The position numbers were made by a program, and so were the translations under genes. Source: Actinomycetospora lutea (GTDB taxonomy: Bacteria > Actinomycetota > Actinomycetes > Mycobacteriales > Pseudonocardiaceae). From it: a stretch of DNA of 64,000 bases. The notes under the pieces are model-generated. The model searched no databases. It saw only the letters and a program-made list of their open reading frames with translations, and had not been told where the DNA came from. The DNA lies in the NCBI RefSeq assembly GCF_028737205.1, contig NZ_JAQZAL010000011.1, positions 124,001-188,000 on the forward strand, read 5' to 3'. This document shows positions 1-64,000 of the stretch, piece after piece; the stretch's first letter is position 1, and each line of letters starts with the position of its first letter.

Positions 1-692
1 CGCGCCCGTCCGACGGCCGGATCGTGGAAGAACAGGAACGGCAGGGCGCCGAGCCGCAGGTGCTCCACCGCCCCCTCGGGCCCGGTCGTCCGCGCGGCAC
101 GGGCGCTGACGGTCGTGCCGGCCGCCCCGGGGGGTTCCGGCGCGGACCCGTCGTCGACCGCGACCCGCCGGCCGGTGGGCCCGCCGCGGTAGACGACCGC
201 GCGGCGCCCGGAGGACCGTTCCACGAAGAGGTGGAAGGCCTCCTCCCGGTCCTCCATGATCGCGACGGCCTCCGGCACCGAGGTGGGCACCGCCAGCACG
301 ACGTCGTGCCGGTCGATCGTGCCGTCCACGGCGGCGGGGTCCGGCGCGCCGGCGCGCCGGGGGTGCGCCCGGGCGTGGGCGTCGCCCACCTGGCGGCGCA
401 GCCGGTCGACGAGCAGGTCCACGGCCTCGCGGGGTGTCGCGGCCACGACGTGGGCGTGCAGGCGGCGACCGGCGAGGTCGACGTGGGCGATCGCCACCAC
501 CGGCCTCTCGCGGGCCGGGTCGTCGTGGCGCACGATGCGGACGCGGGCCGGTCCGACGGGGTGCACGCCGTGATCGAGGGCGTGCACCACCTTCTCCCGG
601 GCGTACTCGGCGAGGCCGGTGCCGATCATGCCGCGGAGCTCGACGACGGGCGGGGGGACGCGGGTGGCCGGCGGGCGGTGCGGCGAGGTCAT
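1..692 (-). CDS. hpf: Long-form ribosome hibernation promoting factor, RafH/Rv0079-like (3' end cut by window edge)
   Basis: Probable hibernation factor that binds and silences ribosomes. The N-terminal ~100 residues look like the S30AE/HPF fold. Residues ~125-170 match the HPF C-terminal dimerisation domain: PTSVPEAVAIMEDREEAFHL, then a VVYR motif. A second copy appears to begin near residue 215 (LGALPFLFFHDPAVGRA) just before the window ends. A duplicated C-terminal domain is a feature of the mycobacterial hypoxia factor RafH. The ATG at 690-692 overlaps the stop of the upstream DUF1876 gene (ATGA), so translation is probably coupled. At least 230 residues are visible and the true C-terminus lies outside. 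The HPF call rests on motif reading and the RafH subtype is inference. Confidence 0.75.
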   Translation of the reverse strand, partial: MTSPHRPPATRVPPPVVELRGMIGTGLAEYAREKVVHALDHGVHPVGPARVRIVRHDDPARERPVVAIAHVDLAGRRLHAHVVAATPREAVDLLVDRLRRQVGDAHARAHPRRAGAPDPAAVDGTIDRHDVVLAVPTSVPEAVAIMEDREEAFHLFVERSSGRRAVVYRGGPTGRRVAVDDGSAPEPPGAAGTTVSARAARTTGPEGAVEHLRLGALPFLFFHDPAVGRA

Positions 693-1051
693 GACGTCGA
701 CGCCGTGCCGCGCCCCGTGACCGGGGCCGGGTCCCCCGGCGGCCTCCCGCCGGCCGGGACCCCGCCGAGGGCGGGTCGTCCGTAGGCGTTCGCGAAGGCG
801 TCGTCGACGGCGTGGTCACCGAGACGGTGACCGAGCTCGACGAGCGCCCGCGCCGCGGCCATCTGCCGGCCGATGACCACCACGGAGGGGTGGTCGGGCC
901 AGCGCACGGCCCGCCCCTCGGCGGCGAGCACCTCCCCCGGCCCGAGGACGTCGTCGGGCCTGCTGTCGAGGACGGCGCGCGCCCAGGTCGCGCCGTCGTC
1001 CCCCGCCTCGTCCTCGAAGGTCACGGTGACCGTCCAGCTCCTCGTCGTCAT
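689..1051 (-). CDS. DUF1876 family protein, Rv1738-like
   Basis: A 120-residue protein. Its first ~85 residues follow the DUF1876 pattern: a W-x-V-x-V start, then GPGEVLAAEGRAVRWPDHPS, then an IG...AAARAL..LGHRL helix. The Mycobacterium tuberculosis member Rv1738 is a DosR-regulon protein whose fold resembles hibernation factors. Here the gene sits directly upstream of, and overlaps by ATGA, an HPF gene, which fits a shared role at the ribosome. The tail beyond residue 90 is Gly/Pro-rich and unlikely to be structured. A 14-bp DevR-like box lies 58 bp upstream. A divergent, partly degraded paralogue lies at 52253-52609. Confidence 0.8.
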   Translation of the reverse strand: MTTRSWTVTVTFEDEAGDDGATWARAVLDSRPDDVLGPGEVLAAEGRAVRWPDHPSVVVIGRQMAAARALVELGHRLGDHAVDDAFANAYGRPALGGVPAGGRPPGDPAPVTGRGTASTS

Positions 1052-1108
1052 GCCCCGACCGTGACTCCCTCGCGGCCGGGGCGGAGGGGGCTCCCGACCC
1101 CCGTGGCG

Positions 1109-1122
1109 GGGCCGGAGGTCCC
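1109..1122 (-). promoter_or_regulatory. DevR-like box upstream of DUF1876-hpf
   Basis: On the minus strand this reads GGGACCTCCGGCCC, an exact match to the GGGACNNNCGGCCC motif recurring through the window. It lies in the 85-bp gap between ppsA and the DUF1876 gene, correctly oriented to drive DUF1876-hpf. It shares the GGGAC half-site of the mycobacterial DevR box. The regulatory role is inferred. Confidence 0.6.
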
Positions 1123-1136
1123 CGCGACGCGATCGG

Positions 1137-3485
1137 TCACCGCGACCCGGACGGCGGGCCGAGCGCCGCGTCCAGCAGCACCCGCCGCTCGGCCCGGCCG
1201 ATGGCCGCGCGCACGGCGTCGACCGCGTGCGGGTCCACCGACACGGCGTCGATCCCCGCGCGGACCAGCAGCTCGGCGTACTGCGGGCGCCGGGTCGGCG
1301 CCTGGCCGCACAGCGACGAGGGCACGCCGTGGCGTCGCGCGGTCGCGATGATCCGCTCGATGGCGTCGACGACCGCGGCGTCGCCCTCGTCGTACACCTC
1401 GGCGCAGCGCTCGCTGTCGCGGTCGACCCCGAGCATCAGCTGGGTGAGGTCGTTGCTGCCGATCGAGACCCCGTCGATGCCGCAGCCGATGTACTCCGGC
1501 AGCCGGTGGACCACCGAGGGCACCTCGGCCGTCAGCCATCGCTGCAGCCCCCGCTGCCCGCCCAGCGGGCTCGCGTCCACCAGCTCGAGGCAGGCCTCGA
1601 GCTCCCAGCGGGTCCGGACGAACGGCAGCATCAGGTGCAGGTTCGGCGACCGCTCCCGGACCCGGGCCAGCGCACGCAGCTCGAGACCGAACACCTGGGG
1701 CTCGCGCAGGTACCGGTAGGCGCCACGGAAGCCGATCATCGGGTTGCTCTCGACCGGCTCGTGGAGCTCCCCCCCGGTCAGCCCCCGGAACTCGTTGCTG
1801 CGCAGATCGGTGGTCCGGTAGATCACCGGGCGGGGGGCGAAGGCCTTCGCGATGGTGGTCACCGCCGCGGCGACGCGGTCGACGAACCGCACCTGCTCCC
1901 CGCGGGCCACGACCTCGCGCGGGTGCACGCCGCCCAGCGCGGCGGTGAGCAGGAACTCCGCGCGCAGGAGACCCACGCCGTCGATGCCCGGTCGCGCCGC
2001 CACCCGCTCGGCCGCCTCGGGCAGCGCGAGGTTCACGTGGACCTCGGTGCCCAGCGCGGCGACCTCCGCCGGCGCGACCTGCGCCGGCGCCGCCGGCGTG
2101 GCGCGGATCGCGACCGGCGCCGCGGGCACGGTGGCGACCGCGGCGCCCGCAGGAGCGGTGGTCCGGTCACCGTCGAGCACCTCGCCGGTGCTGCCGTCGA
2201 CCGTGACCACGCGGCCGTCCGTGACGGTGGTGGTGGCCCGGCGCGTGCCGACCACGCAGGGCACCCCGAGCTCGCGGGCCGCGATCGCCGCGTGGCACGT
2301 CGCGCCCCCCGTGTCGGTGACGATCGCCGCGGCGCGGCGCAGTGTCGGCAGCCAGTCGGGGTTGGTCAGGGGGGCGACGAGCACCTCGCCGGGCTGCAGG
2401 GCGGCGCCCTGGTCGGGGGTGTGCAGGACGCGGACCGGGCCGGCCACCCGTCCCGGCGTCGCCGGGAGGCCGCGCAGCAGGACCGCGGCCGGACCACCCC
2501 CGCCGGGCCGCTCCTCGAGGGCCGTGGTGATCGGGCGGGCCTGGACCAGCCAGAGCTGCTCGCCGTCGTGCGCCCACTCGACGTCCTGCGGCCGGCCGTA
2601 GTGCTCCTCCACGCGCCGGGCCAGGGCGGCGACCTCGAGGATCCCGTCGAGGGACAGCACCGGTGCCGCGCCGCGCTCGGGATCGAGGGGCACGCGGACG
2701 TCCGCCCCGTCGGGGCCGCGGACGACCTCGTGGGTCTGCACCCCCACGCGCATCGACCGCAGGCGCAGGCCGTCGACGGCGACCTCGTAGGTGTCGGGCT
2801 CGACGGTGCCGCCCACCACCACCTCGCCCTGACCGAGGGCCGCCTCGATCAGCACGACGCCGCGCTCCCCGGTGCGCGGGTCGGCGGTGAACGCCACCCC
2901 GGCGCACCGGGCCGGCACCATCGTCTGCACGACCACGGCGATCGCGGGCTCGCCGGTGTACCCCCGGGCCGCGCGATAGGCCACGACCCGCTCGCCGAAG
3001 AGCGACGCCCAGCAGTCGACGATGCGGCGCACCAGCTCGTCGGCGGTGCGCACGGTGGTGAACGAGGCGTTCATGCCGGCGAACGAGGCCTGCGCGCCGT
3101 CCTCCCCCACCGCCGACGACCGGACCGCGACGACCGGACGCCCCAGTCCTTCCCAGGTGGCCCGGACGTGCTCCTCGAGGGCCGGCGGCATCCCCGCGGC
3201 ACGGACCTGGCCGGCGAGGGCGGCGCAGAGCTCCGCGAGGCGGTCGGGCGGGGCGGCCCGCGCCTCGTCGTGCCCGGCCGCGAGCGCCGCGCGGACCCCG
3301 GCGGCGTCCATCGCCGCCCGGTACGCCTCCGCCGGCAGCACGAACCCGTCGGGGACGGGGAACCCCGCGGCGATCAGCTCGCCGAGGTGGGCGGCCTTGC
3401 CCCCCACGTCGTCCGCGTCGGTCGCGCGGACGGCGGTCAGGGGCCGCACGGCACTCGCCGTCGGGCGCTCGGTGGTGGTGCTCAT
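1137..3485 (-). CDS. ppsA: Phosphoenolpyruvate synthase / pyruvate, water dikinase
   Basis: Makes PEP from pyruvate and ATP (AMP and phosphate released), the entry step of gluconeogenesis. The 782 residues contain the N-terminal ATP-grasp nucleotide domain (GGKAAHLGEL near residue 28), the central phospho-His swivel domain with TGGATCHAAIAARELGVPC, and a C-terminal PEP-binding barrel with SIGSNDLTQL and SLCGQAP. Length is normal for the family (~790). GGAGG sits 4 nt before the ATG. The start overlaps the stop of a 58-residue membrane peptide by ATGA. It is the last cistron of a four-gene unit starting at 4821, so it is probably induced from the box at 4858. In a dormancy setting it would recycle pyruvate when glycolytic flux stops, which is inference. 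Confidence 0.93.
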   Translation of the reverse strand: MSTTTERPTASAVRPLTAVRATDADDVGGKAAHLGELIAAGFPVPDGFVLPAEAYRAAMDAAGVRAALAAGHDEARAAPPDRLAELCAALAGQVRAAGMPPALEEHVRATWEGLGRPVVAVRSSAVGEDGAQASFAGMNASFTTVRTADELVRRIVDCWASLFGERVVAYRAARGYTGEPAIAVVVQTMVPARCAGVAFTADPRTGERGVVLIEAALGQGEVVVGGTVEPDTYEVAVDGLRLRSMRVGVQTHEVVRGPDGADVRVPLDPERGAAPVLSLDGILEVAALARRVEEHYGRPQDVEWAHDGEQLWLVQARPITTALEERPGGGGPAAVLLRGLPATPGRVAGPVRVLHTPDQGAALQPGEVLVAPLTNPDWLPTLRRAAAIVTDTGGATCHAAIAARELGVPCVVGTRRATTTVTDGRVVTVDGSTGEVLDGDRTTAPAGAAVATVPAAPVAIRATPAAPAQVAPAEVAALGTEVHVNLALPEAAERVAARPGIDGVGLLRAEFLLTAALGGVHPREVVARGEQVRFVDRVAAAVTTIAKAFAPRPVIYRTTDLRSNEFRGLTGGELHEPVESNPMIGFRGAYRYLREPQVFGLELRALARVRERSPNLHLMLPFVRTRWELEACLELVDASPLGGQRGLQRWLTAEVPSVVHRLPEYIGCGIDGVSIGSNDLTQLMLGVDRDSERCAEVYDEGDAAVVDAIERIIATARRHGVPSSLCGQAPTRRPQYAELLVRAGIDAVSVDPHAVDAVRAAIGRAERRVLLDAALGPPSGSR

Positions 3486-3658
3486 GGATCCTCCCGGCGG
3501 GACGGGACGGGCAGGGGGTGCCCCGGCTCGCGTCGAGGCCCACGGCCGCCGGGAGGACCGTCACCGCGGGTGACCCGGCGGTCGAGGGCGTCGAGCAGGA
3601 GCAGCAGGGCCATCAACGACACGGGGAGCCCCACCGGGACCCAGAGCCAGGCGATCAC
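3482..3658 (-). CDS. Small single-pass membrane protein coupled to ppsA
   Basis: A 58-residue protein starting with GTG at 3658, overlapping the upstream STAS gene (GTGA), and ending in an ATGA overlap with ppsA. Residues 2-25 (IAWLWVPVGLPVSLMALLLL and on) form one hydrophobic helix. The rest is Arg/Pro/Gly-rich and positively charged, so probably cytoplasmic. Overlaps at both ends strongly suggest it is translated. I recognise no family. Function unknown; it could anchor a neighbour to the membrane or simply mediate coupling. Confidence 0.6.
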   Translation of the reverse strand: MIAWLWVPVGLPVSLMALLLLLDALDRRVTRGDGPPGGRGPRREPGHPLPVPSRREDP

Positions 3659-4470
3659 GACTCGTCGCTCGGTGACGCCGGTCGTGTCCCGCGGACCGTG
3701 CCGGTCGCCCCGGCCGCACCGATCGGGACCCCGTCCTCGCCCGCCCAGTCGACGGCGGCGTCGAGGTCGTCGTGGGGGAAGTGCCGGACCTGGGGGTGCA
3801 GGGCGGCGTCGGCCAGGGTCGCCCCGGCGGCCGGGAGGACGCCGTCGATGGCGAGCGCGAGGCGCCGGATGCGGTGCTGGTGGCCCGCCACGAACCCGAG
3901 GTGGTGCCACAGAGCCGGGAGGTTCGCCCACCCCGGGATGCCCGGAGCGTGCACGACCAGCCCCCGGAGCTCGCGGGCGGTCCGCAGCTCCTCCTCCACC
4001 GCGGCCGTGAGGGCGTCGATGTCGTCGGTCCGCAGGGCGCGGTCGGCCTCCACCACCACGACGCCGCGCCCCAGGTCGGTGCGCGTCCGGATGCGCGGCC
4101 CCTCGTGGACCGCGAGGAGCCACGCGACGGCGTCGTCCCGCTCGGCGGTCGTGAACACCCGGAGGGGGTACGGCGTGGTCCACGCGGCGAGCCGGCAGGC
4201 CGTCCGCATCCACGCCAGGTCGGTCACCACCGCGAACGCGGCGAAGCGCCGGAGAGCGCGCAGACCGAGCCGCAGGTCCTCCCAGAGCGCGGCCGGGGTG
4301 ACGCCGGTGTAGTCGTCCTCGATCCGGCAGAGGACGCGCATCGTCCGGTCGGTGCGCTCGGCCTCCTGCAGGAGGGGCAGGACGACGGCGTCGTACTCGT
4401 CCCGGGTCAGCACGCCCCCCGCGCGGACGCCGTCGATCTCGGGCGGCAGGTCGGTCAGCTCCTCGATCAC
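3655..4470 (-). CDS. Tandem SpoIIAA/STAS-like (DUF3478-type) protein
   Basis: A 271-residue protein built of two related halves. Residues ~10-110 carry the pattern GVLTRDEYDAVVLPLLQEA, then VLCRIEDDYTGVTP, FAVVTDLAWMR and PLRVF. Residues ~125-245 carry GVVVVEADRALRTDDIDAL, then GLVVHAPGIPGW and RIRRLALAIDG. This matches the SpoIIAA-like fold, a lipid- or nucleotide-binding STAS relative. The same two-domain design recurs at 10114-10869, and a one-domain version at 29413-29856. It lies 12 nt downstream of the 112-residue membrane protein and overlaps the small gene after it. Biochemical role unknown; all three copies sit close to DevR-like boxes. Confidence 0.75.
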   Translation of the reverse strand: MIEELTDLPPEIDGVRAGGVLTRDEYDAVVLPLLQEAERTDRTMRVLCRIEDDYTGVTPAALWEDLRLGLRALRRFAAFAVVTDLAWMRTACRLAAWTTPYPLRVFTTAERDDAVAWLLAVHEGPRIRTRTDLGRGVVVVEADRALRTDDIDALTAAVEEELRTARELRGLVVHAPGIPGWANLPALWHHLGFVAGHQHRIRRLALAIDGVLPAAGATLADAALHPQVRHFPHDDLDAAVDWAGEDGVPIGAAGATGTVRGTRPASPSDES

Positions 4471-4857: not shown

Positions 4858-4871
4858 GGGCCGATGGTCCC
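4858..4871 (-). promoter_or_regulatory. DevR-like box of the ppsA operon
   Basis: On the minus strand: GGGACCATCGGCCC, an exact match to GGGACNNNCGGCCC, 37 bp before the ATG at 4821 of the four-gene ppsA unit and outside any gene. Confidence 0.6.
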
Positions 4872-6930: not shown

Positions 6931-8274
6931 TCAGGACCCGACGCGGACGGCGGCCCGTGGGGCGGCGTCGTCGAGCGGTGCGGTCGCCCGCGGCAGGTGG
7001 CGGGCGAACCAGTCGCACGCCAGCTCGGCCGCCCGCGTCCGCGCCCCGTGCTCCCCGTCGATCGCGCCGGTGTCCATCACCACCAGGAGCCGGCTGGTCG
7101 TCGGCAACGTCTGCCGTGCGCGGCGGTTGAGCTCGACCAGCACCGGGTCCCGGTCGCCGACGACCAGCAGGACGGGTGCCGTGATCCGTGGGAGTTCCCG
7201 TGCCGCCAGGTCGGGCCGACCGTTGGCGGACACCACGGCGGCGACGTCGACGTGGGCGGCCACGGCGAGCGCCGCCGCGGCCGCGGTGCGCTCCGCGAGC
7301 AGGCCGATCAGCAGTCCGCGGCAGGCCGGGCGGCGACGGACGTCGGCGACGACCGCGGCGAGGCGGGTCGCGAGCGTCCCGGTGTCGAAGACGCGCTCGC
7401 GCACGATCTCCTCGCGGGGGGTCAGGAGGTCGACGACGAGCGTCGCCAGGCCGGCGGCGCGGAGACACCGTGCCGTCTCCCGGTGCCGGGGGTCGAAGCG
7501 GCTGCTCCCGCTCGCGTGGGCGAAAACGATCAGTCCGGTCGCCTCGACCGGCACCACGAGGTGGCCCGCGACGCTGGCCCGCTCGACCCGGATGTCGACG
7601 TGGGCCACCGGCTCGCCGTCGATCGGCCGCGTGGCGCGGACCGGCGCCCGCGAGCGCAGGACGGCGACGACCTCCTCGTCGTCGACGGGCGGGTGGACCG
7701 CGTATGCCTCGCCGACGGCGCGGCGCTCGCGGGTGACCTCGAGCGTGACGACCTCGTCGGCCACCTCCCGCAGTGCGGGCAGCGCATCCCGCGGACAGAC
7801 CGGGAGCGCCAGCACGATCCGTGACGCGCCGCGGGCACGGGCCGTCAGGCACGCCGCCCGGGCACTGCTGCCGGTGACCGCGCCGTCGTCCACGACCACG
7901 GCGGTCCGGCCCGCCAGCGGCTCCCGCGGCCGCACCGACCGGTAGCGCTCCACGATCCGTGTCACGGCCTCCCGTTCGCGGCGCTCGACCTCGGCCAGCT
8001 CCGCCTCGGTCGTGCCCACGGTGCACGCCAGGTCGTCGTCGACCACCCGGGCCCCGTGCTCGCCGACCGCCCCCAGGGCCGCGCCGGGCTGGAAGGGCAT
8101 GCCCAGCCTGCGGGTCACGACCACGTCCAGCGCGGCGTCGAGGGCCCGCGCCACGACGGCGGCGACGGGGACGCCGCTGCGCGCCACCCCGAGCACCACC
8201 AGGTCCCCACCCGCCTGCTCCCGCAGACGGTCGGCGAGCCGCCGCCCGGCGTCCTCGCGATCGTCGAAGATCAT
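6931..8274 (-). CDS. Phosphoribosyltransferase-alpha/beta hydrolase fusion, Rv0571c-like
   Basis: A 447-residue two-domain protein. Residues ~1-215 are a type I phosphoribosyltransferase fold: [20 protein letters not shown], and the PRPP loop [18 protein letters not shown]. Residues ~225-430 resemble a dienelactone-hydrolase-type alpha/beta hydrolase ([31 protein letters not shown]). Where the nucleophile elbow is expected ([15 protein letters not shown]) no clear G-x-S/C-x-G is present, so the hydrolase half may be inactive. M. tuberculosis Rv0571c, a DosR-regulon gene, has the same domain order and size (443 residues). The ATG at 8274 follows GGAGG. The gap to the divergent slipin gene carries two imperfect boxes. 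Substrate unknown. Confidence 0.82.
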
Positions 8275-8360: not shown

Positions 8361-8427
8361 GGGCCGTCCGACCCGGATCCGGTCCCGGGATCGGGACCTG
8401 TGCCGCGTGCGGGGTGACGTCCGGTCC
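8361..8427. promoter_or_regulatory. Two imperfect DevR-like boxes, divergent Rv0571c-like/slipin promoter
   Basis: The 234-bp gap between the divergent starts at 8274 and 8509 holds GGGCCGTCCGACCC (8361-8374; the reverse strand reads GGGTCGGACGGCCC) and GTGACGTCCGGTCC (8414-8427). Each differs from the window consensus at about two positions. Confidence 0.35.
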
Positions 8428-9982: not shown

Positions 9983-10056
9983 GGGACCAACGGCCCGTCT
10001 GCGTGCGACCCCGGTCCCCGGATCGGCGGGTTCGGGCACATCGGGACCAGCGGCCC
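9983..10056 (+). promoter_or_regulatory. Two perfect DevR-like boxes in the DUF7144/STAS divergent promoter
   Basis: GGGACCAACGGCCC (9983-9996) and GGGACCAGCGGCCC (10043-10056), both exact GGGACNNNCGGCCC and 60 bp apart. The second ends 57 bp before the STAS start at 10114. A spacing near six helical turns would place two dimers on the same DNA face. Confidence 0.6.
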
Positions 10057-10878: not shown

Positions 10879-15482
<4,604 letters not shown>

Positions 15483-48151: not shown

Positions 48152-48209
48152 CCTCGACCGGTCGCGCCCGTCCCGCCATGTCAGCCCCGAGACCGCGGAC
48201 AGGAACCGG

Positions 48210-48596: not shown

Positions 48597-48715
48597 GGTC
48601 ACCGTCCTGGCGAGGAAGGAGTGGCGATGGGTCCAGCATGCCCGGGCAGCCCCGTCCGACGACACCCCGGCCGATCAGCAGCACCCCGCGTGGACACGCG
48701 CAGTACCGTCCGGTC

Positions 48716-49195
48716 ATGTTCGAGGGAGACGAGATCGTGCTGGGGCCCCTGCCCAAGGGCATCGTGCGCGCCGGTGAAGGTCAGCACCGTCGGGTGTGGA
48801 ACGTGCTCGGCCACACCTACTGGGCGAAGGCGATCAGCGAGTCCAGCTTCGCGTTCGAGACCCTCGACCCGCCGCAGACCGGCGTGCCGCCCCACGTCCA
48901 TCCCACGCAGGACGAGCACATCCACGTCCTCGGGGGTGTCTTCACGCTCTACCTCGACGGGGCGTGGGAGAAGGCCGGTCCCGGCGACACGGTGCTCATG
49001 CCGCGCGGCCTCCCCCACGCCTACTACAACCGCACCGAGGACGACGCCCGCGCCCTGTTCTGGGTGAGCCCCGCCGGCAAGCTGGCCCACCTGTTCGACC
49101 AGCTGCACGACCTCCAGGACCCCGACGAGGTCGTGCGGCAGTCCGCGCTGCACGACGTCGAGTTCCTCCCGCCCGGCTCCGTCCCCGGCGCCTGA
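48716..49195 (+). CDS. Cupin-domain protein
   Basis: A 159-residue single-domain cupin. Motif 1 GVPPHVHPTQDEHIHVLGG supplies two His and a Glu for a metal, motif 2 LMPRGLPHAYYN the last His, so the metal site is complete. AGEGQHRRVWNVLGHTYWAK precedes it and FWVSPAGKLAHLFDQLHDL follows. This subclass resembles quercetinase/oxidoreductase-type small cupins of unknown substrate. The last 30 residues include a helical extension. No clear ribosome site upstream of the ATG at 48716. Confidence 0.83.
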   Translation: MFEGDEIVLGPLPKGIVRAGEGQHRRVWNVLGHTYWAKAISESSFAFETLDPPQTGVPPHVHPTQDEHIHVLGGVFTLYLDGAWEKAGPGDTVLMPRGLPHAYYNRTEDDARALFWVSPAGKLAHLFDQLHDLQDPDEVVRQSALHDVEFLPPGSVPGA

Positions 49196-49270
49196 GCCCG
49201 CAGCACCTGCCCGTGGGGGTCGAGGAGACGACCCTTCGGTGGTGGTCGCCGCCGTGGTCGGGGCGTCGGG

Positions 49271-50068: not shown

Positions 50069-50376
50069 GTCCGCACCTCCGGCCGGTCGGGCACGTGCGG
50101 GGCGTCGACGACCCGGCGGACGTCGCGGTCGAGCGGCCCGACCTCCGGGAGCTCGGCGTCGCGCGGCAGCTCGAGGACGGTCGACCGGCGGGGCGGGCGC
50201 ACCCGGACGTCCTCGCGCTCGGGGAGCGCCGACTGGGCGCGGACCCCGCCCTCCGTCCGTCCCGTGGCCCCGCGCAGGTCCGGGCCGCCGGGCCCGGCGC
50301 GGGCGACGAGCTCCTCGTCGACCAGACCCCGCAGCACCCTCGCCTCGCCGTCCATCCCCGTCTCCCCCGCCGTCAT
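50065..50376 (-). CDS. Hypothetical 103-residue protein upstream of the DUF6544-like gene
   Basis: A soluble, charged protein with no recognised domain. Its stop overlaps the next start as ATGA, the same arrangement seen at genuine couplings in the window, and a DevR-like box lies 87 bp before the ATG. Composition is Arg/Glu/Asp/Pro-rich, which in GC-rich DNA can also come from a chance frame. Two Met codons (1 and 8) are possible starts. Confidence 0.45.
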   Translation of the reverse strand: MTAGETGMDGEARVLRGLVDEELVARAGPGGPDLRGATGRTEGGVRAQSALPEREDVRVRPPRRSTVLELPRDAELPEVGPLDRDVRRVVDAPHVPDRPEVRT

Positions 50377-50462: not shown

Positions 50463-50476
50463 GGGTCGTTGGTCCC
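50463..50476 (-). promoter_or_regulatory. DevR-like box upstream of the 50065/49271 pair
   Basis: Minus strand GGGACCAACGACCC, 13 of 14 positions as the perfect site at 9983, and 87 bp before the ATG at 50376. Confidence 0.5.
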
Positions 50477-50949: not shown

Positions 50950-51480
50950 TCAGGCGATCGGCCCGACCGGGAGCGGTCCCGCCACGATCGCGGCCTCGTC
51001 CGCCGTGGGCTCCTCCACCCGCTGCGGCGTCGGCACCACGGTCACCGGGCACGGAGCCCGCAGGACGACCGAGAGCCCGACCGAGCCGAGCAGCCTGCTG
51101 CGCAGTGCCCCGCGTCCGCGGTGACCCACGACCAGCAGCTCGGCGCCGGTCGCTTCCTGCTCGAGCACCCACGCGGCGGGTCCGGTCACGGCCACCACCT
51201 CGAGCGGCACGGCACGATCGTCGGCGGCCAGCTCGCGAAGCACAGCCTCCACCCGCGTCCGCATCGCGTCCTCGACGCTCTGCCGGATCTCGTCGCTGTC
51301 GGCCAGCAGGGGCACGCCGTAGGACGACATCCAGGCGTCGGGCGGCTCGTACGCGACGACGGCCCGCACCGCCAGACCCCGCCGCCGCGCCTCGGTCACC
51401 GCGTAGCGGAGGGCGTCCTCGGCCGCGAGCGAGCCGTCGACCCCAACCACGATCCGTCCTCGCTCCTGCGCTGCGTCCAT
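50950..51480 (-). CDS. Single-domain universal stress protein
   Basis: A 176-residue UspA protein: RIVVGVDGSLAAEDALRYAV at the start, intact nucleotide loop VVGHRGRGALRSRLLGSVG, then CPVTVVPTP. The C-terminal ~20 residues are an extension. AWMSSYGVPLLADSDEIRQS resembles the insertion helix of the USP at 32589. ATG at 51480. A perfect 14-bp box lies 95 bp upstream. Predicted ATP-binding class. Confidence 0.9.
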   Translation of the reverse strand: MDAAQERGRIVVGVDGSLAAEDALRYAVTEARRRGLAVRAVVAYEPPDAWMSSYGVPLLADSDEIRQSVEDAMRTRVEAVLRELAADDRAVPLEVVAVTGPAAWVLEQEATGAELLVVGHRGRGALRSRLLGSVGLSVVLRAPCPVTVVPTPQRVEEPTADEAAIVAGPLPVGPIA

Positions 51481-51574: not shown

Positions 51575-51588
51575 GGGCCGTCGGTCCC
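51575..51588 (-). promoter_or_regulatory. DevR-like box upstream of USP at 50950
   Basis: Minus strand GGGACCGACGGCCC, exact GGGACNNNCGGCCC, in the 215-bp gap before the USP ATG at 51480. Confidence 0.6.
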
Positions 51589-52666: not shown

Positions 52667-52680
52667 GGGCCGAAGGTCCC
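52667..52680 (-). promoter_or_regulatory. DevR-like box upstream of DUF1876 paralogue-flavodoxin
   Basis: Minus strand GGGACCTTCGGCCC, exact GGGACNNNCGGCCC, 58 bp before the ATG at 52609. Confidence 0.6.
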
Positions 52681-52722: not shown

Positions 52723-53838
52723 TCACCGGCCGGCGAGGACCGCGCGCACCTGGCGGGCGATCACCAGGTCCTCGCGGACGTGCACGACCACCGTGCGCGC
52801 CCGCGCGTCCGCCGCCGACACGTCGGCCTCCACCCCACCGACCGCGAGCGCATCGGCGCCGGGGTCGACGGCGACCCCGAGGAACCCGAGACCGGCGGCC
52901 ACGCGTCGGCGCAGCACCGGGGAGTTCTCCCCCACCCCGCCGCTGAACGCCAGCACGTCGAGGCCCCCGCACGCCGCCGCCATCGCGGCGAGCTGCGCGC
53001 ACGCGCGGTGCACCCACACGTCGACAGCCAGGCGAGCGTCCGCGTCCCCGCCGTCGGCGGCGTCGAGGACGTGGCGCATGTCGGCGTCACCGGCCAGCGC
53101 GAGCAGCCCGGACCCGTGGTCCAGGGCGTGGTCGACCTCGTCGACGGGCCGCCCGGCCCGCCGCACCAACCAGGTCACCGCCGAGGGGTCGAGGTCGCCG
53201 CAGCGCGTGCCCATGACCAGCCCCGCGGTGGGCGTGAAGCCCATCGTCGTGTCCACCGACCGTCCGTCGCGGACGGCGCACGCGGACGCACCCGACCCGA
53301 GGTGCGCCACCACCACCCGCAGCCGCTCCAGCGGCCGGTCCACCAGCTCGGCGGCCCGCGCCGAGGCCCAGTCGTGGGCCAGGCCGTGGAAGCCGTAGCG
53401 GCGCAACCCGAGCTCGGAGCGCCACCACCGCGGCACCGCGTAGGTGCGCGCCGCCTCCGGCATCGTCGCGTGGAACGCCGTGTCGAAGCACGCCACCGAC
53501 GGCGCGTCCGGCAGCGCCGCGATCATCGCCCGGACCCCGGCGACGGCCGGAGGCTGGTGCAGCGGGGCGAGGGCGGTCAGCCGATCGATCCGGTCCAGGA
53601 CGTGCGCGTCGACCACGGTGGCCGTCGTGAGGTCGGCGCCACCGTGCACGACGCGGTGACCGACCGCGTCGACGCCGCCGGCCTCCCGCGCCAGCCGGAG
53701 CGCCGTGGCCTCCAGCTCTCCGGCGGCGGGTCGACCGCGCGGCGCGTCGAGATCCCGCCGGTGGACCACCCGGTCGTCGGGCTCGACCACCCGCAGCTTG
53801 ACGCTGCTCGACCCCGCGTTGAGGACGAGGACCCGCAT
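52723..53838 (-). CDS. ackA: Acetate kinase
   Basis: Converts acetyl phosphate and ADP to acetate and ATP. 371 residues, slightly short for the family (~400). Motifs: VLVLNAGSSSVKLRV, HRVVHGGADL, CFDTAFHATMPEAARTYAVP, RYGFHGLAHDW, VAHLGSGASACAVRDGRSVD and FSGGVGENSPVLR. The ATG at 53838 shares one base with the phosphoketolase stop (TGATG), so the acetyl phosphate made by that enzyme is turned into ATP by a coupled partner. No phosphotransacetylase gene is in the window. Confidence 0.95.
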   Translation of the reverse strand: MRVLVLNAGSSSVKLRVVEPDDRVVHRRDLDAPRGRPAAGELEATALRLAREAGGVDAVGHRVVHGGADLTTATVVDAHVLDRIDRLTALAPLHQPPAVAGVRAMIAALPDAPSVACFDTAFHATMPEAARTYAVPRWWRSELGLRRYGFHGLAHDWASARAAELVDRPLERLRVVVAHLGSGASACAVRDGRSVDTTMGFTPTAGLVMGTRCGDLDPSAVTWLVRRAGRPVDEVDHALDHGSGLLALAGDADMRHVLDAADGGDADARLAVDVWVHRACAQLAAMAAACGGLDVLAFSGGVGENSPVLRRRVAAGLGFLGVAVDPGADALAVGGVEADVSAADARARTVVVHVREDLVIARQVRAVLAGR

Positions 53839-56357
53839 CACCGCCCCTGAGCCGGTCGAGCCCCGCCGCGCTCCGTCTCCCGGACGTCGGCGAGGGGATC
53901 GTGCTGATCGGGGCCGGTACGGACGGGGCCGGTACGGACGTCGTCCGGGAGGTCGGGCGCGGTGTCCTCCCCGGTCCCCGCCGGGCGGCCGCTGCCCTCC
54001 CACGCCCAATCGCGGACGTCGGGCCGGTCCTCGCCGTGGCGACGGGTGTACTCGCGGCAGGCGAGCCGCTCGTCGGCCATCCGCTGGCGCAGCCCGGCGT
54101 GCCGCACCGCCAGTCCGGGGACCCGGTCGATCACGTCCATCACGAGGTGGAAGCGGTCGAGGTCGTTGAGCATGACCATGTCGAAGGGCGTGGTCGTCGT
54201 GCCCTCCTCCTTGTAGCCGCGCACGTGGACGTTCGGGTGGTTGGTGCGCCGGTAGGTCAGGCGGTGGATCAGCCAGGGGTAGCCGTGGTAGGCGAAGATC
54301 ACCGGCTTGTCCGGGGTGAACAGGGCGTCGAACTCGCGGTCGGGCAGCCCGTGCGGGTGCTCGGTCGGGTCCTGCAGCCGCATGAGGTCGACGACGTTGA
54401 CCACGCGGACGCGCAGGTCGGGCAGGTGCCGGCGCAGCAGGTCGACCGCGGCGAGCGTCTCCAGCGTCGGGACGTCGCCGGCGCACGCGAGGACGACGTC
54501 GGGCTCACCGTCGGTGTCGCTGGACGCCCACTCCCACACGCCCAGCCCGCGGGTGCAGTGCGCGACCGCGGCGTCCGTGTCGAGCCACTGCGGGGCGGGC
54601 TGCTTGCCCGCGACGATCACGTTGACGTAGTCGCGGCTGCGCAGGCAGTGGTCGGCGGTGGAGAGCAGCGTGTTCGCGTCCGGCGGCAGGTAGACGCGCA
54701 CGACCTCGGCCTTCTTGTTCACCACGTGGTCGATGAACCCGGGGTCCTGGTGGGAGAAGCCGTTGTGGTCCTGGCGCCACACGTGCGAGGTGAGCAGGTA
54801 GGTCAGCGACGCGATCGGGCGCCGCCACGCGATGCCGCGGGTGACCTTCAGCCACTTCGCGTGCTGGTTGAGCATCGAGTCGACGATGTGGATGAACGCC
54901 TCGTAGCAGGTGAACAGACCATGCCGGCCGGTGAGCAGGTAGCCCTCGAGCCAGCCCTGGCACATGTGCTCCGAGAGCATCTCGACGGTGCGGCCGTGCG
55001 GCGCGAGGTGGTCGTCGCCCTCGGCGATCCGGCCGAGGAACTGGCGGTCGGTGACGGCGAAGACGTCCTGCAGACGGTTCGACGCGACCTCGTCGGGCCC
55101 GAACAGCCGGAAGTTCTCCGGATTGCGCCGCACCACCTCACGGATCCAGCCGCCGAGCACGCGCGTGGACTCCGCGACCGGCCCACCCGGGCGGTCCACG
55201 GCGACCGCGTGCGCGCGGAAGTCGGGCAGTCGCAGGTCGCGCAGCAGCTCGCCGCCGTTGGTGTGGGGCGTGGCGCTCATCCGCCGGTCCCCGCCCGGGT
55301 GCAGGTCGGCGAGCTCGGGGCGCGGGCGGCCGGCGTCGTCGAAGAGCTCCTCGGGCCGGTAGGAGCGCATCCAGCGCTCGAGCTCCGCGCGGTGCTCCGC
55401 GTTCTCCCGGGTGCCGGACAGCGGCACCTGGTGGGCGCGGTACGTGCCCTCCACCCGCACGCCGTCCACGTCGCGGGGGCCGGTCCAGCCCTTCGGCGTG
55501 CGCAGGACCAGCATCGGCCAGCGGGGACGCCCGACCTCCTGCCCGGCCGCGGACGCCTCCGCGGCCTCCCGCCGCAGGCGGGCGATCTCCTCGACGATCT
55601 CGTCCATCGTGTCCGCCATCCGCCGGTGGACGGCTGCGTGGTCCTCGTCGATGCCCGCCTCGACGACGTAGGGACGGTGGCCGTAGCCGGTGAGCAGCGC
55701 GAGCAGCTCCTCCTCCGGGATGCGCGCGAGGACGGTCGGGTTGGCGATCTTGTAGCCGTTGAGGTGCAGGATCGGCAGCACCGTGCCGTCCTGCACCGGG
55801 TGGCAGAACTTGTTGGCGTGCCAGGCGGTGGCCAGCGGGCCGGTCTCGGCCTCGCCGTCGCCGACGACGCAGGCCACCAGCAGGTCGGGGTTGTCGAAGG
55901 CGGCGCCGTACGCGTGCGCCAGCGCATAGCCCAGCTCACCGCCCTCGTGGATGGAGCCCGGCGTCTCGGGGGCGACGTGGCTGGGGATGCCCCCGGGGAA
56001 GGAGAACTGGCGGAACAGCGTCCGCATCCCCTCCTCGTCGGCGGTCACGTGGGAGTACCGCTCGGAGTAGGTGCCCTCCAGCCACGTCGCGGCCACGACC
56101 GCCGGGCCGCCGTGACCCGGGCCGGACACGTAGAGCGGGTCGAAGCCGCCGCGCCGGGCCACGCGGTTGAGGTGGGCCCACACGAACGTCTGGCCGGGCG
56201 TGGTCCCCCAGTGCCCCAGCAGGCGGGGCTTGACGTGCTCCGCGGCGAGCGGCTCGCGCAGCAGCGGGTTGTCCTGCAGGTAGATCTGGCCGACCGACAG
56301 GTAGTTCGCCGCGCGCCACCAGGCGTCGAGGAGGGTCAGGTCGTCGTGGGCACACAC
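53838..56357 (-). CDS. xfp: Phosphoketolase (xylulose-5-P / fructose-6-P)
   Basis: Thiamine-diphosphate enzyme cleaving xylulose 5-phosphate (and often fructose 6-phosphate) with phosphate to acetyl phosphate. 839 residues, normal length. Marks: [51 protein letters not shown], the ThDP motif [25 protein letters not shown]-type [46 protein letters not shown] and [17 protein letters not shown]. The GTG at 56357 has GAGGAG 5 nt upstream and the start overlaps the DUF1579-like gene by 22 nt; the open frame further upstream is a shadow. With acetate kinase it gives a redox-neutral ATP route usable without respiration. Confidence 0.96.
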
Positions 56358-56935: not shown

Positions 56936-57076
56936 GTCGACCGGGCCGGCCGGCCCTGCCGCGACGGCCGGTGCCGGCCCGACCCTCGGACCCATGAGGA
57001 ACGCGGAGGGCGCGCAGCACCCGCTGGCGCCGGCCGTCGTGCGACGGGCGCAGGGCCGCGCGCCGGCGGGCGTGCG

Positions 57077-61041: not shown

Positions 61042-61563
61042 TCACGAGGACGTCGAACCGGAGCCCGGGACCGACACCGGGGCCGGCACCGGGGCGAGAC
61101 GGTGCGGGATCACCAGGACCGGGCACGTGGCCTCCCGCACGCAGCGGGCGCTGACCGATCCGAGGAGCGCGGCCCGGGCCCGGCCACGACCCCGGGAGCC
61201 GACCACGAGGACGTCGGCGTCGTGCGCGGCGCGCAGGAGGATGCCCGCGGCGTCGGGCCCCTGGGTCAGGTGGAGGTCGACGTCCGGGACCTCCTCGCCC
61301 ACGAGCGCCTCGACGACCTCGGTGAGCCGGCGTCGGGCGACGGCCTCCATCTCGGCGAGGTGCGGCGTGCCCGTCTCCTGGTCCGCCACGGCGGTGTCCC
61401 AGACGTCGCGCAGCTTCCAGGCCCACACCACGCGCAGCGCGCCGCCCGTGAGCCGGGCGAGGGAGGCCGCCCAGCGCACCGCCTCGGCGGCCTCGTCGGA
61501 GCCGTCGAAGCCGGCCACGACCAGCGCGATGCCCCGGGCCCCGGCGGAACCCGGCGCGGTCAT
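61042..61563 (-). CDS. Single-domain universal stress protein
   Basis: A 173-residue UspA protein: LVVAGFDGSDEAAEAVRWAA, HDADVLVVGSRGRGRARAAL and an intact G-x2-G-x9-G-S loop, then CPVLVIPH and a Pro/Val tail. ATG at 61563 overlaps the stop of the upstream tandem USP (ATGA). It is followed 26 bp later by the HTH_42 gene. Predicted ATP-binding class. Confidence 0.9.
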   Translation of the reverse strand: MTAPGSAGARGIALVVAGFDGSDEAAEAVRWAASLARLTGGALRVVWAWKLRDVWDTAVADQETGTPHLAEMEAVARRRLTEVVEALVGEEVPDVDLHLTQGPDAAGILLRAAHDADVLVVGSRGRGRARAALLGSVSARCVREATCPVLVIPHRLAPVPAPVSVPGSGSTSS

Positions 61564-62456
61564 CGGCCCGCTCCCGCGACGGGGCCGCCCACGGTGATCG
61601 CCGGGCCCAGCACGAGGACGGGGCAGGGCGCGGCGAGGAGCACCGAGCGCGTGGTGGACCCGACACCCACGAGGTGCCCGGCCGTGTGGCCGCGGTGACC
61701 GAGGACGACCAGGTCGGCACCGGCCGCGCGCGCCAGCAGCAGCCGCGCCGCGCGGTCCTCGGCGATCACCACCTCCACCGGGACGTCGGGGACCCGCTCG
61801 CGGGCCGCGGCGACGAGGGCGTCGACCGGGGCCGGGTCGATCTCGTCCTCCTCCCGGCGGGTGATCCCGCCGGCGCCGTACCCGACCTCGCTGACCGCCC
61901 GGACCACCTCGACGGACTCGCCGAGCGTCTCGGCGGCGCGCAGGGCGGTGAGCAGCACCTCCGCGGCGCCCGGGGCGTCGTCGACCCCGACGACGACCCC
62001 CGCCCGGCGCGTGCCGGCAGGCGTGGGCCCGCGGTACTCCGGGACCACGAGCACCGGGCACGGCGCGATGGTGATCAGCTCCTCGGTGGTCCGGCCGGCG
62101 TCGCTGCCCAGGCGACGCCGCCGGTCGCCGACGACGAGCACCGACGTGGCGTCGCCGGCCCCCGCCAGCGCCGTCGCCGGATCGGCCGGGTCGCAGGTGC
62201 GCCGGACCTCGAGGTCGGGTGCGGTGCGCCGCAGGTAGGCCTCGGCCCGCGCGCCGGCGTCGTCGTCCCCGGGCGTGTCGGGCGGACCGGCCGCCTCCGC
62301 GGGGTGCGCGTGGACGATCCGCACCGTCCGGTCCCGGCGCCGCGCCTCGGCCACGGCCCGGTCGAGCACCCGCGTCCGGAGCAGCCCGTCGTCCACCCCG
62401 ACGACCACGGACGGGGCCTGCGGGAGCACCCGCGCTCCCATCGAGGTCACGGTCAC
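61560..62456 (-). CDS. Tandem-domain universal stress protein with degenerate loops
   Basis: A 298-residue protein of two USP domains. Domain 1 (~15-150): SVVVGVDDGLLRTRVLDRAV, VLVVGDRRRRLGSDAGRTTE, CPVLVVPEY; its Gly-rich loop is lost. Domain 2 (~160-290): GVVVGVDDAPGAAEVLLTAL, VVLGHRGHTAGHLVGVGSTT, CPVLVLGP; its loop is partly kept. GTG start at 62456 overlaps the upstream USP stop (GTGA). Middle member of three translationally coupled USP genes. Confidence 0.87.
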   Translation of the reverse strand: MTVTSMGARVLPQAPSVVVGVDDGLLRTRVLDRAVAEARRRDRTVRIVHAHPAEAAGPPDTPGDDDAGARAEAYLRRTAPDLEVRRTCDPADPATALAGAGDATSVLVVGDRRRRLGSDAGRTTEELITIAPCPVLVVPEYRGPTPAGTRRAGVVVGVDDAPGAAEVLLTALRAAETLGESVEVVRAVSEVGYGAGGITRREEDEIDPAPVDALVAAARERVPDVPVEVVIAEDRAARLLLARAAGADLVVLGHRGHTAGHLVGVGSTTRSVLLAAPCPVLVLGPAITVGGPVAGAGR

Positions 62457-63334
62457 GTCGCCTCCCCGGCGCCGGAGTGCTCGCGCGCCCAGGCCGCGGC
62501 CGCGGGCGGGGACAGGACCGCCACCGGGCACGGAGCGCCGCGCACGACCCGCTGGCTCGTCGAGCCGATCAGCACGCCACCGATCGCCCCGTGCCCCCGC
62601 GAGCCCACCGCCACCAGCGCCGCACCCGCGCGGGCCTCGGCGAGGATCTCCTCGGCCGGCTGGCCCTGGCGCACCACCTCGTGCAGGGGCAGGTCCGGGC
62701 GGCTGCTGGTGATGCCCGTCGTGGCCTCGGCGAGGTGGCGCCGGGCGTCCTCGTCGCTCTCCTCGCCGCTACCGGCGGTGACGGTGACCGCCGTCAGCGA
62801 GGCCCCGTCCCGGTCGGCGACGTCGGCGCCGAACGCCAGCGCGCCCGCCGCCTCCGGGGAGCCGTCGACACCCACGAGCACTCCCGGAGCGGTCTCGGCG
62901 CCGGGGTCCCAGTGCGACGGGACGATCACCACGGGGCAGGCGGCGTGACCCATCGCGTGGGCCGCGGTGCGCCCGACGCCCGCGTCGATCACCGCGCCAC
63001 GGGGACGGGCACCGAGGACGAGCAGGTCGGCCCGGGCCGCGGTCGCCGCGAGGGCGGGGCCGACCACACCGTCGACCACCGCGAAGTGCACCGGGAGGTG
63101 GGGGGCCGCAGCGTGGGCGGCGTTCCGGGCCCGCCCGAGCAGGGCGAGCGCGCGACCCGACGGGCCGCGGGTCTCGTCGTGCGGCCGGTCCGACGGGGGC
63201 AGCACCTGGATGAGGACGAGCGTCGACCGGCGGCGGGCGGCCTCGCGCGCGGCCCAGGCCACGGCATTGTGCGTCGCGGGACTGCCGTCCACGCCGACGA
63301 GGACGCCCGTCGGCGGCACCGAGTGGTCGATCAC
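62453..63334 (-). CDS. Tandem-domain universal stress protein, first gene of the USP operon
   Basis: A 293-residue protein. Domain 1 (~5-145): GVLVGVDGSPATHNAVAWAA, LLVLGARPRGAVIDAGVGRT (loop degenerate), CPVVIVPSHWDPG. Domain 2 (~150-280): GVLVGVDGSPEAAGALAFGA, AVGSRGHGAIGGVLIGSTS (loop intact), CPVAVLSPP. The GTG at 63334 has GGAGG 6 nt upstream. A box lies 80 bp upstream. It begins a run USP-USP-USP-HTH_42-Ddn on the minus strand with overlaps or short gaps. Confidence 0.9.
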   Translation of the reverse strand: MIDHSVPPTGVLVGVDGSPATHNAVAWAAREAARRRSTLVLIQVLPPSDRPHDETRGPSGRALALLGRARNAAHAAAPHLPVHFAVVDGVVGPALAATAARADLLVLGARPRGAVIDAGVGRTAAHAMGHAACPVVIVPSHWDPGAETAPGVLVGVDGSPEAAGALAFGADVADRDGASLTAVTVTAGSGEESDEDARRHLAEATTGITSSRPDLPLHEVVRQGQPAEEILAEARAGAALVAVGSRGHGAIGGVLIGSTSQRVVRGAPCPVAVLSPPAAAAWAREHSGAGEAT

Positions 63335-63510: not shown

Positions 63511-63753
63511 TCACCGCACGGAGCGGAGCGACCCGATGTCGCGGCGCATCCGGGCGACGACGGCCTGCGCGGTCGGGTCGACCGAGGTCCAGCCGCGCAG
63601 CCGGCCCGCCGCCGCTGCGTCGCCGTGCTCCGCGAGCACCAGGAGGTCGACCAGCGCGTCCCGCCAGGCCTCGCTGATCGGTGCCGCGGTCGGCGGTGGC
63701 GCCGCGACGGCCCCGTGGTCGCTCGCGGGCGGGGCCGGGTCGGTGATCGTCAA
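63511..63753 (-). CDS. Small hypothetical protein (80 residues)
   Basis: An 80-residue soluble protein. The first 25 residues are Pro/Ala-rich; residues ~28-75 form a helical, well-composed region (EAWRDALVDLLVLAEHGDAA, AQAVVARMRRDIGSLRSVR). No family recognised. ATG at 63753 with AGGAGG about 9 nt upstream and a near-perfect box 79 bp upstream, which makes it more credible than its length alone would. Confidence 0.6.
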   Translation of the reverse strand: MTITDPAPPASDHGAVAAPPPTAAPISEAWRDALVDLLVLAEHGDAAAAGRLRGWTSVDPTAQAVVARMRRDIGSLRSVR

Positions 63754-63831
63754 GGGTCCTCCTCGGGCGGCGTCCCGCCCATCCCATCGGCGTGTCCGTG
63801 GCGCGGCGAGGTGCCGACCGGGCCGCGCCCG

Positions 63832-63845
63832 CTGCCGAAGGTCCC
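63832..63845 (-). promoter_or_regulatory. DevR-like box upstream of the 80-residue gene
   Basis: Minus strand GGGACCTTCGGCAG; first 12 positions identical to the perfect site at 52667. 79 bp before the ATG at 63753. Confidence 0.45.
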
Positions 63846-63950
63846 GACCCGTCCGCGAGCCCTCGGTGCGCCTGCCGTCGCGGTGTTCGCGGCGGGCTCC
63901 TGCTCGGTCGGTGGCTCCCGGTCCCGGGTGGCGGGGTCGGCGCGCGCGGG

Positions 63951-64000
63951 TCAGCGTCGCGCGCTGAGGTGGTGCACGGTCGCGAGCAGCCAGAGCACCA
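63951..64000 (-). CDS. C-terminal end of a further minus-strand gene (cut by window edge)
   Basis: The last 50 bp on the minus strand read VLWLLATVHHLSARR followed by a TGA at 63951-63953. The hydrophobic-then-basic ending suits a small membrane protein. Only the tail is visible, so the call is tentative. Confidence 0.35.
   Translation of the reverse strand, partial: VLWLLATVHHLSARR

Follow-up and report, generated by a model that had tools for sequence, protein, structure and literature searches.

A putative DevR/OsdR-type stress island spanning 118 kb or more in Actinomycetospora lutea and its variation within the genus

The regulon of the dormancy regulator DosR/DevR in Mycobacterium tuberculosis is dispersed over several loci. 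The question raised here is whether, in Actinomycetospora lutea, a member of the Pseudonocardiaceae, a comparable set of genes lies in one piece. The DNA analysed (hereafter the window) is a stretch of 64,000 nucleotides, C9:124001-188000, in contig C9 (194,082 bases) of the draft genome G000 (6.53 Mb, 106 contigs). An earlier note, made from the sequence alone, had read it as a near-complete DevR-type regulon packed in one contiguous block that may run past both edges. The block was indeed found, and it is larger than claimed. It stretches from ~C9:75.4 kb, that is ~49 kb further left than the window, to the contig end at 194 kb, with 121 called genes in at least 118 kb; as it reaches the contig end, the size is a lower bound. 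In detail, orthologues of genes in the corresponding islands of other Actinomycetospora begin at gene 79 (C9:75.5 kb), with few further left, and DevR boxes are dense from ~C9:77 kb up to the contig end. We place at roughly 80% the probability that the window belongs to a DevR/OsdR-type stress island on the chromosome, of this size or larger, with the signalling and evolution model proposed below.

"Near-complete" was too strong for the window itself, as Nar-like, Hsp20, Acg-type and PfkB genes and a second P-ATPase gene are in the island but outside the window. In the island as a whole, the families which we take to be characteristic DevR targets, namely universal stress proteins (USPs), Rv1733c, Acg, Hsp20, Nar and CtpF, are all present according to Pfam/NCBIfam. 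Gene calling was based on codon usage and gave 64 genes in the window; Pfam scans covered 60 of these 64 proteins and 40 of the 57 other island proteins. The minus strand carries 74 of the 121 island genes. Judged by their sequences, many of these ~120 side-by-side genes look controlled by a relative of DevR, and the signals would be hypoxia and nitric oxide (NO).

Three genes of the window form the putative signalling set (window coordinates, strand, description):

31839..32486, minus strand: DevR/OsdR-like LuxR-type response regulator (PDB match 3c3w)
10879..12627, minus strand: DevS/DosT-like heme-GAF sensor histidine kinase, GAF-GAF-HisKA_3-HATPase (Pfam and PDB matches)
15562..16896, plus strand: pseudo-kinase with heme-type GAF, second GAF and DHp stub, phospho-acceptor His changed to Ser, no ATPase domain

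PDB matches and kept residues agree with the identities first proposed for the regulator and the kinase. The best match of the regulator is M. tuberculosis DevR (3c3w, 298.7 bits), followed by VraR (138.3); it shares an identical 12-residue stretch with 3c3w and its DNA-binding part matches. The first GAF of the kinase is closest to 2vzw (174.6 bits; labelled probable histidine kinase, presumably DosT) and to DevS 2y8h (162.2 bits). The His in AHHPPM is kept, and we take the His before PPM to be the heme ligand of DevS (His149). The phospho-acceptor motif HDHVLQR and the ATPase domain are also present. These features are those of a predicted sensor with a heme-binding GAF of the DevS/DosT type.

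Further copies of the regulator gene were encountered. A second DevR-like gene of G000 (C51:86-95 kb, L224) is 75% identical, has a box at C51:93407 and is adjoined by homologues of four island genes; the same block occurs in G011 on C7 (L223). One island of G006 contains two DevR copies (C13:10138-10776 and 97469-98110), 89% identical, on the same strand and 87 kb apart. A TGA seen for the second copy of G006 had suggested a pseudogene, a reading that is not claimed here.

The pseudo-kinase, proposed in the earlier note as a relative of the DevS-like kinase, is a conserved member of these islands. Nine islands encode a protein of 426-456 residues with two GAF domains and a DHp region, which ends at the expected start of the ATPase domain. 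In all nine aligned sequences the phospho-acceptor His is replaced by Ser or Asn and the ATPase domain is missing (Pfam was run on the window copy only). The protein cannot be a kinase, since it lacks both the phospho-acceptor His and the ATPase domain, and its conservation suggests that it has a function. The heme-ligand motif is kept in 6/6 members of the G000 clade and missing in 3/3 of the other clade. Likely relatives lie near DevR of G011 and G015, and none was seen in the G012 stretches examined.

Of 120 genomes of the family that were searched, five being Actinomycetospora, 118 had a match to the pseudo-kinase, and all 28 examined loci from other genera proved to be full kinases. A few other matches fell in short open frames (e.g., 464 residues in G112). 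Within 80 public actinobacterial DevR loci, the match to the pseudo-kinase was better than that to the kinase in one only, that of A. soli. No kinase-dead DevS partner was apparent in the open-access literature searched. In G000, a second pseudo-kinase-like sequence (C43:39702-40849) is 71-78% identical, consists of two pieces with their own open frames and lies near a USP match at C43:41071.

The candidate target sites were defined by the DevR/OsdR core GGGNC-N4-GNCCC. The full 20-bp mycobacterial consensus had been tried and gave no intergenic window site at 14/20 (0.18 expected). Twenty-five core boxes are located in the window, 20 of them intergenic compared with 2.9 expected by length, as intergenic DNA makes up 11.8% of the window. 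The spacings of 0-3 and 5-12 bp have 0-6 intergenic matches each, and only the 4-bp spacing is enriched. The following boxes are listed (window coordinates):

1087..1122: DevR box pair, 22 bp apart (1087, 1109)
4858..4871: DevR box
8361..8374: DevR box
9983..9996: DevR box
10043..10056: DevR box
12680..12693: DevR box between the devS-like and acyl-CoA synthetase genes
26982..27017: DevR box pair, 22 bp apart
29024..29037: DevR box
29886..29928: DevR box pair, 29 bp apart
30987..31022: DevR box pair, 22 bp apart
32569..32582: DevR box upstream of the devR-like gene
44860..44873: DevR box
50463..50476: DevR box
51575..51588: DevR box
52667..52680: DevR box between the minus-strand genes 54 and 55
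56943..56956: DevR box

Boxes are common throughout the island, which has 59 in 118 kb compared with 56 in control stretches of this genome totalling 587 kb (5.2-fold denser); for the sequence GGGNCSNNSGTCCC the respective numbers are 36 and 12. Intergenic DNA of the island (13.9 kb) contains 41 of the 59, or 2.95 per kb, compared with 0.49 in C9:1-75.4 kb and with 17 boxes in 66 kb of intergenic DNA from 26 other stretches of G000. A box lies no more than 250 bp upstream of 22/45 first-of-unit genes in the window, 45/85 in the island and 5/54 in the left flank. Across ten islands (337 sites), the distance of intergenic boxes to the start codon peaks at 60-80 bp and is mostly 40-120 bp. Pairs of boxes 14-100 bp apart number 41 in these ten islands, ten of which are at 21-24 bp, including three of the window's own. 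When orthologues of G000 and four other large islands were paired, a box was found on both sides in 77 of 274 pairs (49.4 expected, odds 5.9); at control spacings 0-12 pairs had the motif on both sides, with odds from 0.2 to 4.3. The 80 public DevR loci (1.49 Mb) show a mild excess, 186 boxes to a mean of 80.5 at control spacings. Two Actinomycetospora loci among them rank 2nd and 3rd in boxes per base, and a third (L105) is outside the best 30.

A mechanism can be proposed from these elements. The DevS-like kinase would sense O2, NO, carbon monoxide or the redox state through heme in its first GAF and phosphorylate the DevR-like regulator. Phosphorylated DevR may then bind the GGGNC-N4-GNCCC palindromes. 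About half of the island transcription units have such a site, for the most part 40-120 bp ahead of the start codon, and in several places two of them are spaced by 21-24 bp. Ribosome hibernation, USPs, storage-lipid synthesis and nitrate respiration would be turned on, together with a fermentative supply of ATP by phosphoketolase-acetate kinase and the ADP-forming acyl-CoA synthetase. The pseudo-kinase, the other protein with a heme-type GAF, probably acts as a modulator of the kinase, for instance by heterodimers formed through the DHp stub. In evolution, the DevR module seems to have been acquired or lost whole in some lineages and to have grown past 100 kb in one clade, where genes would change place with hardly any change of orientation.

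The block is recognisable in related species. Eighteen Actinomycetospora genomes were searched (G013 is 59% complete, G008 84% complete and G004 incomplete). A DevR match of at least 82% identity exists in 12 of them, G000 included, and G013 has one of 80% over residues 1-88. Among the matches listed, none exceeds 44% in G001, G003 (one contig), G007 and the incomplete G004 and G008; the DevR locus is absent in three of the 15 near-complete genomes (G001, G003 and G007). These three have 7, 5 and 7 USP domains, G004 has 6, G013 has 7 and the genomes with DevR have 8 to at least 62. Two of the latter, G014 (8) and G011 (9), are barely above the genomes without DevR, and G008, with 26 USP domains and no DevR match, opposes a correlation of the two unless its DevR lies in an assembly gap.

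The rpoB tree covers 15 of the 18 genomes, as G004, G008 and G013 had no rpoB match, and separates two clades with support of 1.000. The one is formed by G000, G002, G005, G006, G009, G012, G017 and G011, the second by G001, G003, G007, G010, G014, G015 and G016. The limits of the islands were drawn by eye, using box density and the genes in common. The islands of G000, G002, G005, G006 and G009 measure ~108-125 kb or more (those of G000, G006 and G009 reach a contig end) and that of G012 is split over contigs. Smaller ones are found in G017 (~53 kb), G010 (~45 kb), G014 (33 kb), G016 (8 kb) and G015 and G011 (few kb). The two markers disagree on one relationship: by rpoB, G011 is the sister of G000 (1.000), whereas the DevR tree places G000 with G006 (0.949) in a group leaving out G011 (0.957). 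Hidden paralogy or exchange would explain this.

Empty sites were observed for the modules of G014/G016, G011 and G017, and not for the G000 island. In G003, the genes flanking the G014/G016 module are neighbours and the alignments meet at 1,838,391-1,838,426. The 19-bp sequence GGGTGGAGACGGGGTGGAG is present once at this empty site (L210:3407) and at both module ends in G016 (L098:8773, 17119), one end with one mismatch; in G014 one end has one mismatch and the other three by count. Allowing up to two mismatches, it occurs eight times in 1.53 Mb, seven of them at the module or empty site in six genomes. The site is also found, with no module in it, in G001 and in G007, where other genes lie near, and G010 aligns across the empty site with its own DevR ~50 kb away. 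The island of G017 lies between pfkA and an anti-sigma-like gene, which are neighbours in G002, whose island lies elsewhere. As a marker of the empty site in genomes without DevR, pfkA was abandoned (matches of only 36-42% in G001, G003 and G007). In G011 the module is flanked by homologues of C9 genes 15 and 16, which are neighbours.

Gene order was compared between the five large islands, which share 53-73 reciprocal-best genes per pair. The close pair G005/G009 is wholly collinear (71/71). In the other nine pairs 24-39 of 52-72 adjacencies are kept, the longest increasing run is 29-42 of 53-73 genes (shuffle means 11.6-14.1) and there are 10-17 order breaks. On the contrary, orientation is kept at 92-100%: with G005 turned as a whole, the strand agrees in 64/65, 61/66, 71/73, 68/70, 51/53, 68/68, 65/66, 61/62 and 72/73 genes. 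Four flank controls are collinear in both order and orientation (25/25, 43/43, 25/25 and 32/32). The best in-island paralogue pairs are on the same strand in 49 of 63 cases (six regions summed). Inversions alone do not produce a reordering with kept strand. Since orientation hardly changed, repeated tandem duplication with reciprocal loss, or unequal exchange between direct repeats, fits better than inversion.

Several observations weigh against a regulon read from boxes and gathered in one place. In DNA of ~76% GC (window), the stress genes could be clustered without any common regulator, the boxes arising from the base composition of GC-rich intergenic DNA. G000 as a whole has 693 matches to the loose motif and 1010 to its backward control. 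Even the backward pattern CCCNG-N4-CNGGG shows a 2.5-fold higher density in the island (32 matches, compared with 64 in the controls), so part of the box excess is compositional; likewise, odds of up to 4.3 at other spacings mean that general similarity of upstream DNA contributes. By the core pattern, 40 of the 85 first-of-unit island genes have no box. A genome-wide count of a tighter motif was discarded as a marker of DevR, as its background is too high (85 forward matches in G003, which has no DevR, and 75 in G000). Genome-wide counts were made for three families only, and the earlier note had named equal numbers elsewhere as the outcome that would speak against packing. USPs are concentrated, with 24 of the 43 domain matches of the genome within C9:76.8-187.3 kb and 12 in the window. 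WS/DGAT (12 matches, two of them taken as one gene; three of 11 genes on C9) and DUF1876 (two matches, one on C9) are not, and for both the outcome was that named against packing. A purely compositional origin is nevertheless very improbable, given the enrichment of the 4-bp spacing only, the intergenic contrast of 41 boxes in 13.9 kb with 17 in 66 kb, the boxes common to orthologues and the peak at 60-80 bp before starts. It is also unlikely that the boxes are mainly read by another NarL-type regulator, either the C51 DevR-like protein or the partner of the CHASE3 kinase at C9:188.4 kb, with the island DevR as one of several inputs. Such a reading could draw on the own box of the C51 gene, on the CHASE3-HAMP-HisKA_3 kinase inside the island and on 63 regulator matches in the genome. 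The DevR-like gene, however, is inside the island with a box upstream, its DNA-binding part matches that of M. tuberculosis DevR, and USP number follows this DevR in the near-complete genomes, though 8 and 9 are close to 7.

The second matter to be weighed is how the DevR/OsdR-type island arose and changed. The earlier note supposed that it could be inherited or exchanged as one unit, and an integrative conjugative or plasmid-derived element moving as such between strains would account for the presence and absence of modules, the empty sites in G001, G003 and G007 with the 19-bp sequence at both module ends, the different sites in G017 and G002 and in G011 and G000, the discordance of the DevR and rpoB trees and the DevR relatives of 60-80% identity on 25 plasmid records. 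Of these points, the presence or absence of modules with empty sites and the discordant trees lend the supposition partial support. The island as a mobile element still appears improbable: integrase, relaxase and transposase families were absent from the Pfam scans of 60 window and 40 other island proteins, no tRNA is in the window, GGGTGGAGACGGGGTGGAG is absent from 705 kb of G000 stretches including the island, the G002/G017 junction has no obvious direct repeat, and the islands differ strongly in gene content and size, with the one in G000 running to its contig end. For the scrambled order, we tentatively consider the regulon a self-renewing supercluster, a reading we hold at clearly less than even odds. 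A compact module of pseudo-kinase, devS and devR would have expanded to >100 kb in one clade by continual orientation-preserving duplication and loss; each unit would keep its own DevR box, so that order is immaterial, and its signalling would be tuned by a dedicated kinase-dead heme-GAF partner, restricted to the genus in the loci examined. Tandem duplication with loss of alternate copies can yield such a pattern. Selection-filtered transposition or exchange could do so too, and the chance that genes moved singly or in blocks by transposition, or that island versions of different strains recombined, comes close to even. Little trace of recent duplicates or remnants was left, and the discordant DevR tree also suits exchange; free transposition, on the other hand, should turn round roughly half of the blocks it moves, except where selection acts against inverted insertions. 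Several results weaken the evolutionary model. When genes with in-region paralogues are excluded the pattern persists but is weaker (G000/G005 34/39), and the flank controls come from G010, G014, G016 and G002/G017, that is from other strain pairs than the scrambled islands. Most in-island paralogue pairs are 30-66% identical and therefore look older than the reshuffling, and recent duplicates are few (the G006 DevR, 89%; one G002 pair, 100%). Homologous rows outside called genes number 3, 2, 7 and 4 in four islands, some being plainly genes overlooked by the caller. The G002 pair (C11:278898 and 297654) encodes identical proteins on the same strand 18 kb apart and is either a recent direct duplication or an assembly artefact.

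The remaining content of the window fits the families listed in the earlier note. Pfam/NCBIfam confirmed the DosR-regulon relatives (HPF-type, DUF1876, Rv1733c, Rv0571c-like, CtpF-type, WS/DGAT and USPs), and Pfam the presence of the metabolic genes (PEP synthase, phosphoketolase, acetate kinase, GH65 and ADP-forming acyl-CoA synthetase). Nine USP genes with 12 domains and three WS/DGAT genes are included among the following (window coordinates, strand, description):

1..692, minus strand: HPF/RafH-type S30AE ribosome-hibernation protein cut by the window edge (Pfam PF16321 30 bits; PF02482 22.5 bits, under the cut-off of 23.7); whole gene C9:123913-124692
689..1051, minus strand: Rv2632c-like/DUF1876 protein (PF08962, 46 bits)
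1137..3485, minus strand: phosphoenolpyruvate synthase, ppsA (Pfam PPDK_N etc.; NCBIfam NF005057, 700 bits)
3655..4470, minus strand: SpoIIAA/STAS-like protein, two stretches, one of three such window genes (PF11964)
6931..8274, minus strand: phosphoribosyltransferase (PF00156, 42.8 bits) with a weak dienelactone-hydrolase match (PF01738, 17.9 bits, under cut-off); presumably Rv0571c-like
12798..15482, plus strand: fusion of GNAT and ADP-forming acyl-CoA synthetase (Pfam)
16901..17500, minus strand: Rv1733c family protein (NCBIfam NF050032, 111.6 bits, cut-off 80; without Pfam match)
17749..18267, plus strand: USP (PF00582)
18293..20812, minus strand: GH65 phosphorylase/hydrolase (Pfam)
21853..23226, plus strand: WS/DGAT acyltransferase (PF03007); two more at 24742-26127 and 37048-38412
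26152..26916, minus strand: USP (Pfam)
27988..28998, minus strand: tandem-domain USP, 2 stretches (Pfam)
32589..33083, minus strand: USP (Pfam)
33941..36406, plus strand: P-ATPase, presumably CtpF-type (Pfam; NCBIfam Ca-type ATPase models under cut-off)
38485..41440, plus strand: interruption with CsoR-type repressor, MBL-rhodanese, TauE-like (by eye) and rhodanese genes
44908..50355, unstranded: interruption with USP, MalT-like fragment (by eye), DUF4386 fragment, cupin and others
50950..51480, minus strand: USP (Pfam)
52723..56357, minus strand: acetate kinase and phosphoketolase, ack-xfp (Pfam)
61042..63334, minus strand: three consecutive USP genes, 5 domains (Pfam)

The GNAT/acyl-CoA synthetase gene is divergent from the devS-like gene, with one DevR box between them. 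The two stretches named as interruptions mostly keep that status: in the persulfide operon (38.5-41.4 kb) one of four genes has a reciprocal-best relative of at least 45% in nine other regions (53%, G006), and in the MalT/DUF4386 stretch (44.9-50.4 kb) one of eight called genes has a relative in other regions. The MalT-like ATPase fragment (45776-46879, by eye, with weak AAA matches) and the C-terminal DUF4386 fragment (47930-48151) are absent from the other islands compared. An avidin-family protein (6506-6913; PF01382, 76.7 bits) has relatives 78-88% identical in three other islands. Upstream of the P-ATPase, C9:157083-157781 (window 33083-33781) has no called gene, and when translated it shows 69-76% identity to genes called in other islands; it would be either a gene overlooked by the caller or a remnant. 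Left of the window, the island contains an Acg-type FMN oxidoreductase, a nitrate transporter-like MFS gene adjoining NarG-, NarH- and NarI-like genes, a second P-ATPase, PfkB, a proteasome activator, Hsp20, a pyruvate-dehydrogenase-like E1/E2 set and CBS proteins. Right of it, the CHASE3 kinase, an M23 peptidase and PspC are found.

This one soil genus offers a natural series of DevR regulons, with genomes that have none, others that have a minimal module and others again in which it exceeds 100 kb. Such a series makes it testable what the functional core of a dormancy response is, and by what route a large regulon is built up and held in one place. Gene order that is scrambled while the strand is conserved is an unusual pattern, and the kinase-dead heme sensor hints at an additional level of control over DevS-type kinases. 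No paper linking Actinomycetospora with DosR was found in the open-access literature searched.

Compared with the M. tuberculosis DosR/DevR regulon, the likeness lies in the regulator, the heme-GAF kinase, the box spacing and the families Rv1733c, DUF1876, Acg, USP, CtpF, Hsp20, PfkB, WS/DGAT and nitrate genes. M. tuberculosis has two full kinases and, to our knowledge, no ATPase-less partner; in G000 a comparable set lies in one island, with such a partner. A possible analogue is the lxa locus of Burkholderia cenocepacia, in which 50 genes (BCAM0275-BCAM0323) linked to low oxygen are clustered, among them six USPs, an alpha-crystallin and a phosphofructokinase (PMC6127331). It belongs to another phylum, and in the parts of the source consulted FixK is discussed as a possible regulator and DosR named as a comparison only (PMC6127331).

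The closest counterpart is the OsdR/OsdK region of Streptomyces coelicolor (Urem et al. 2016, PMC5069765). OsdR is a DevR orthologue that binds M. tuberculosis DevR targets and controls the region SCO0167-SCO0219 with most USPs and the Nar operon (PMC5069765). Its consensus in Streptomyces, AGGGCCGATCGGCCCT, fits the core GGGNC-N4-GNCCC, and the region holds 8 of 11 USPs and, at a low cut-off, 27 boxes around the regulator (PMC5069765). Given this known island, a clustered dormancy regulon as such is not new. No account of such a size, within-genus variation, reshuffling or pseudo-kinase was found in the open-access literature searched. The island of A. lutea shows the arrangement of the OsdR type, a regulator amid dense boxed stress genes, and shares with the S. 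coelicolor region the DevR orthologue, the matching box and the Nar genes. Unlike that region, it comprises at least 118 kb, 121 called genes, 59 boxes and 24 of 43 USP domains, includes a conserved pseudo-kinase, varies strongly between congeners and is reshuffled in order with its orientation kept.

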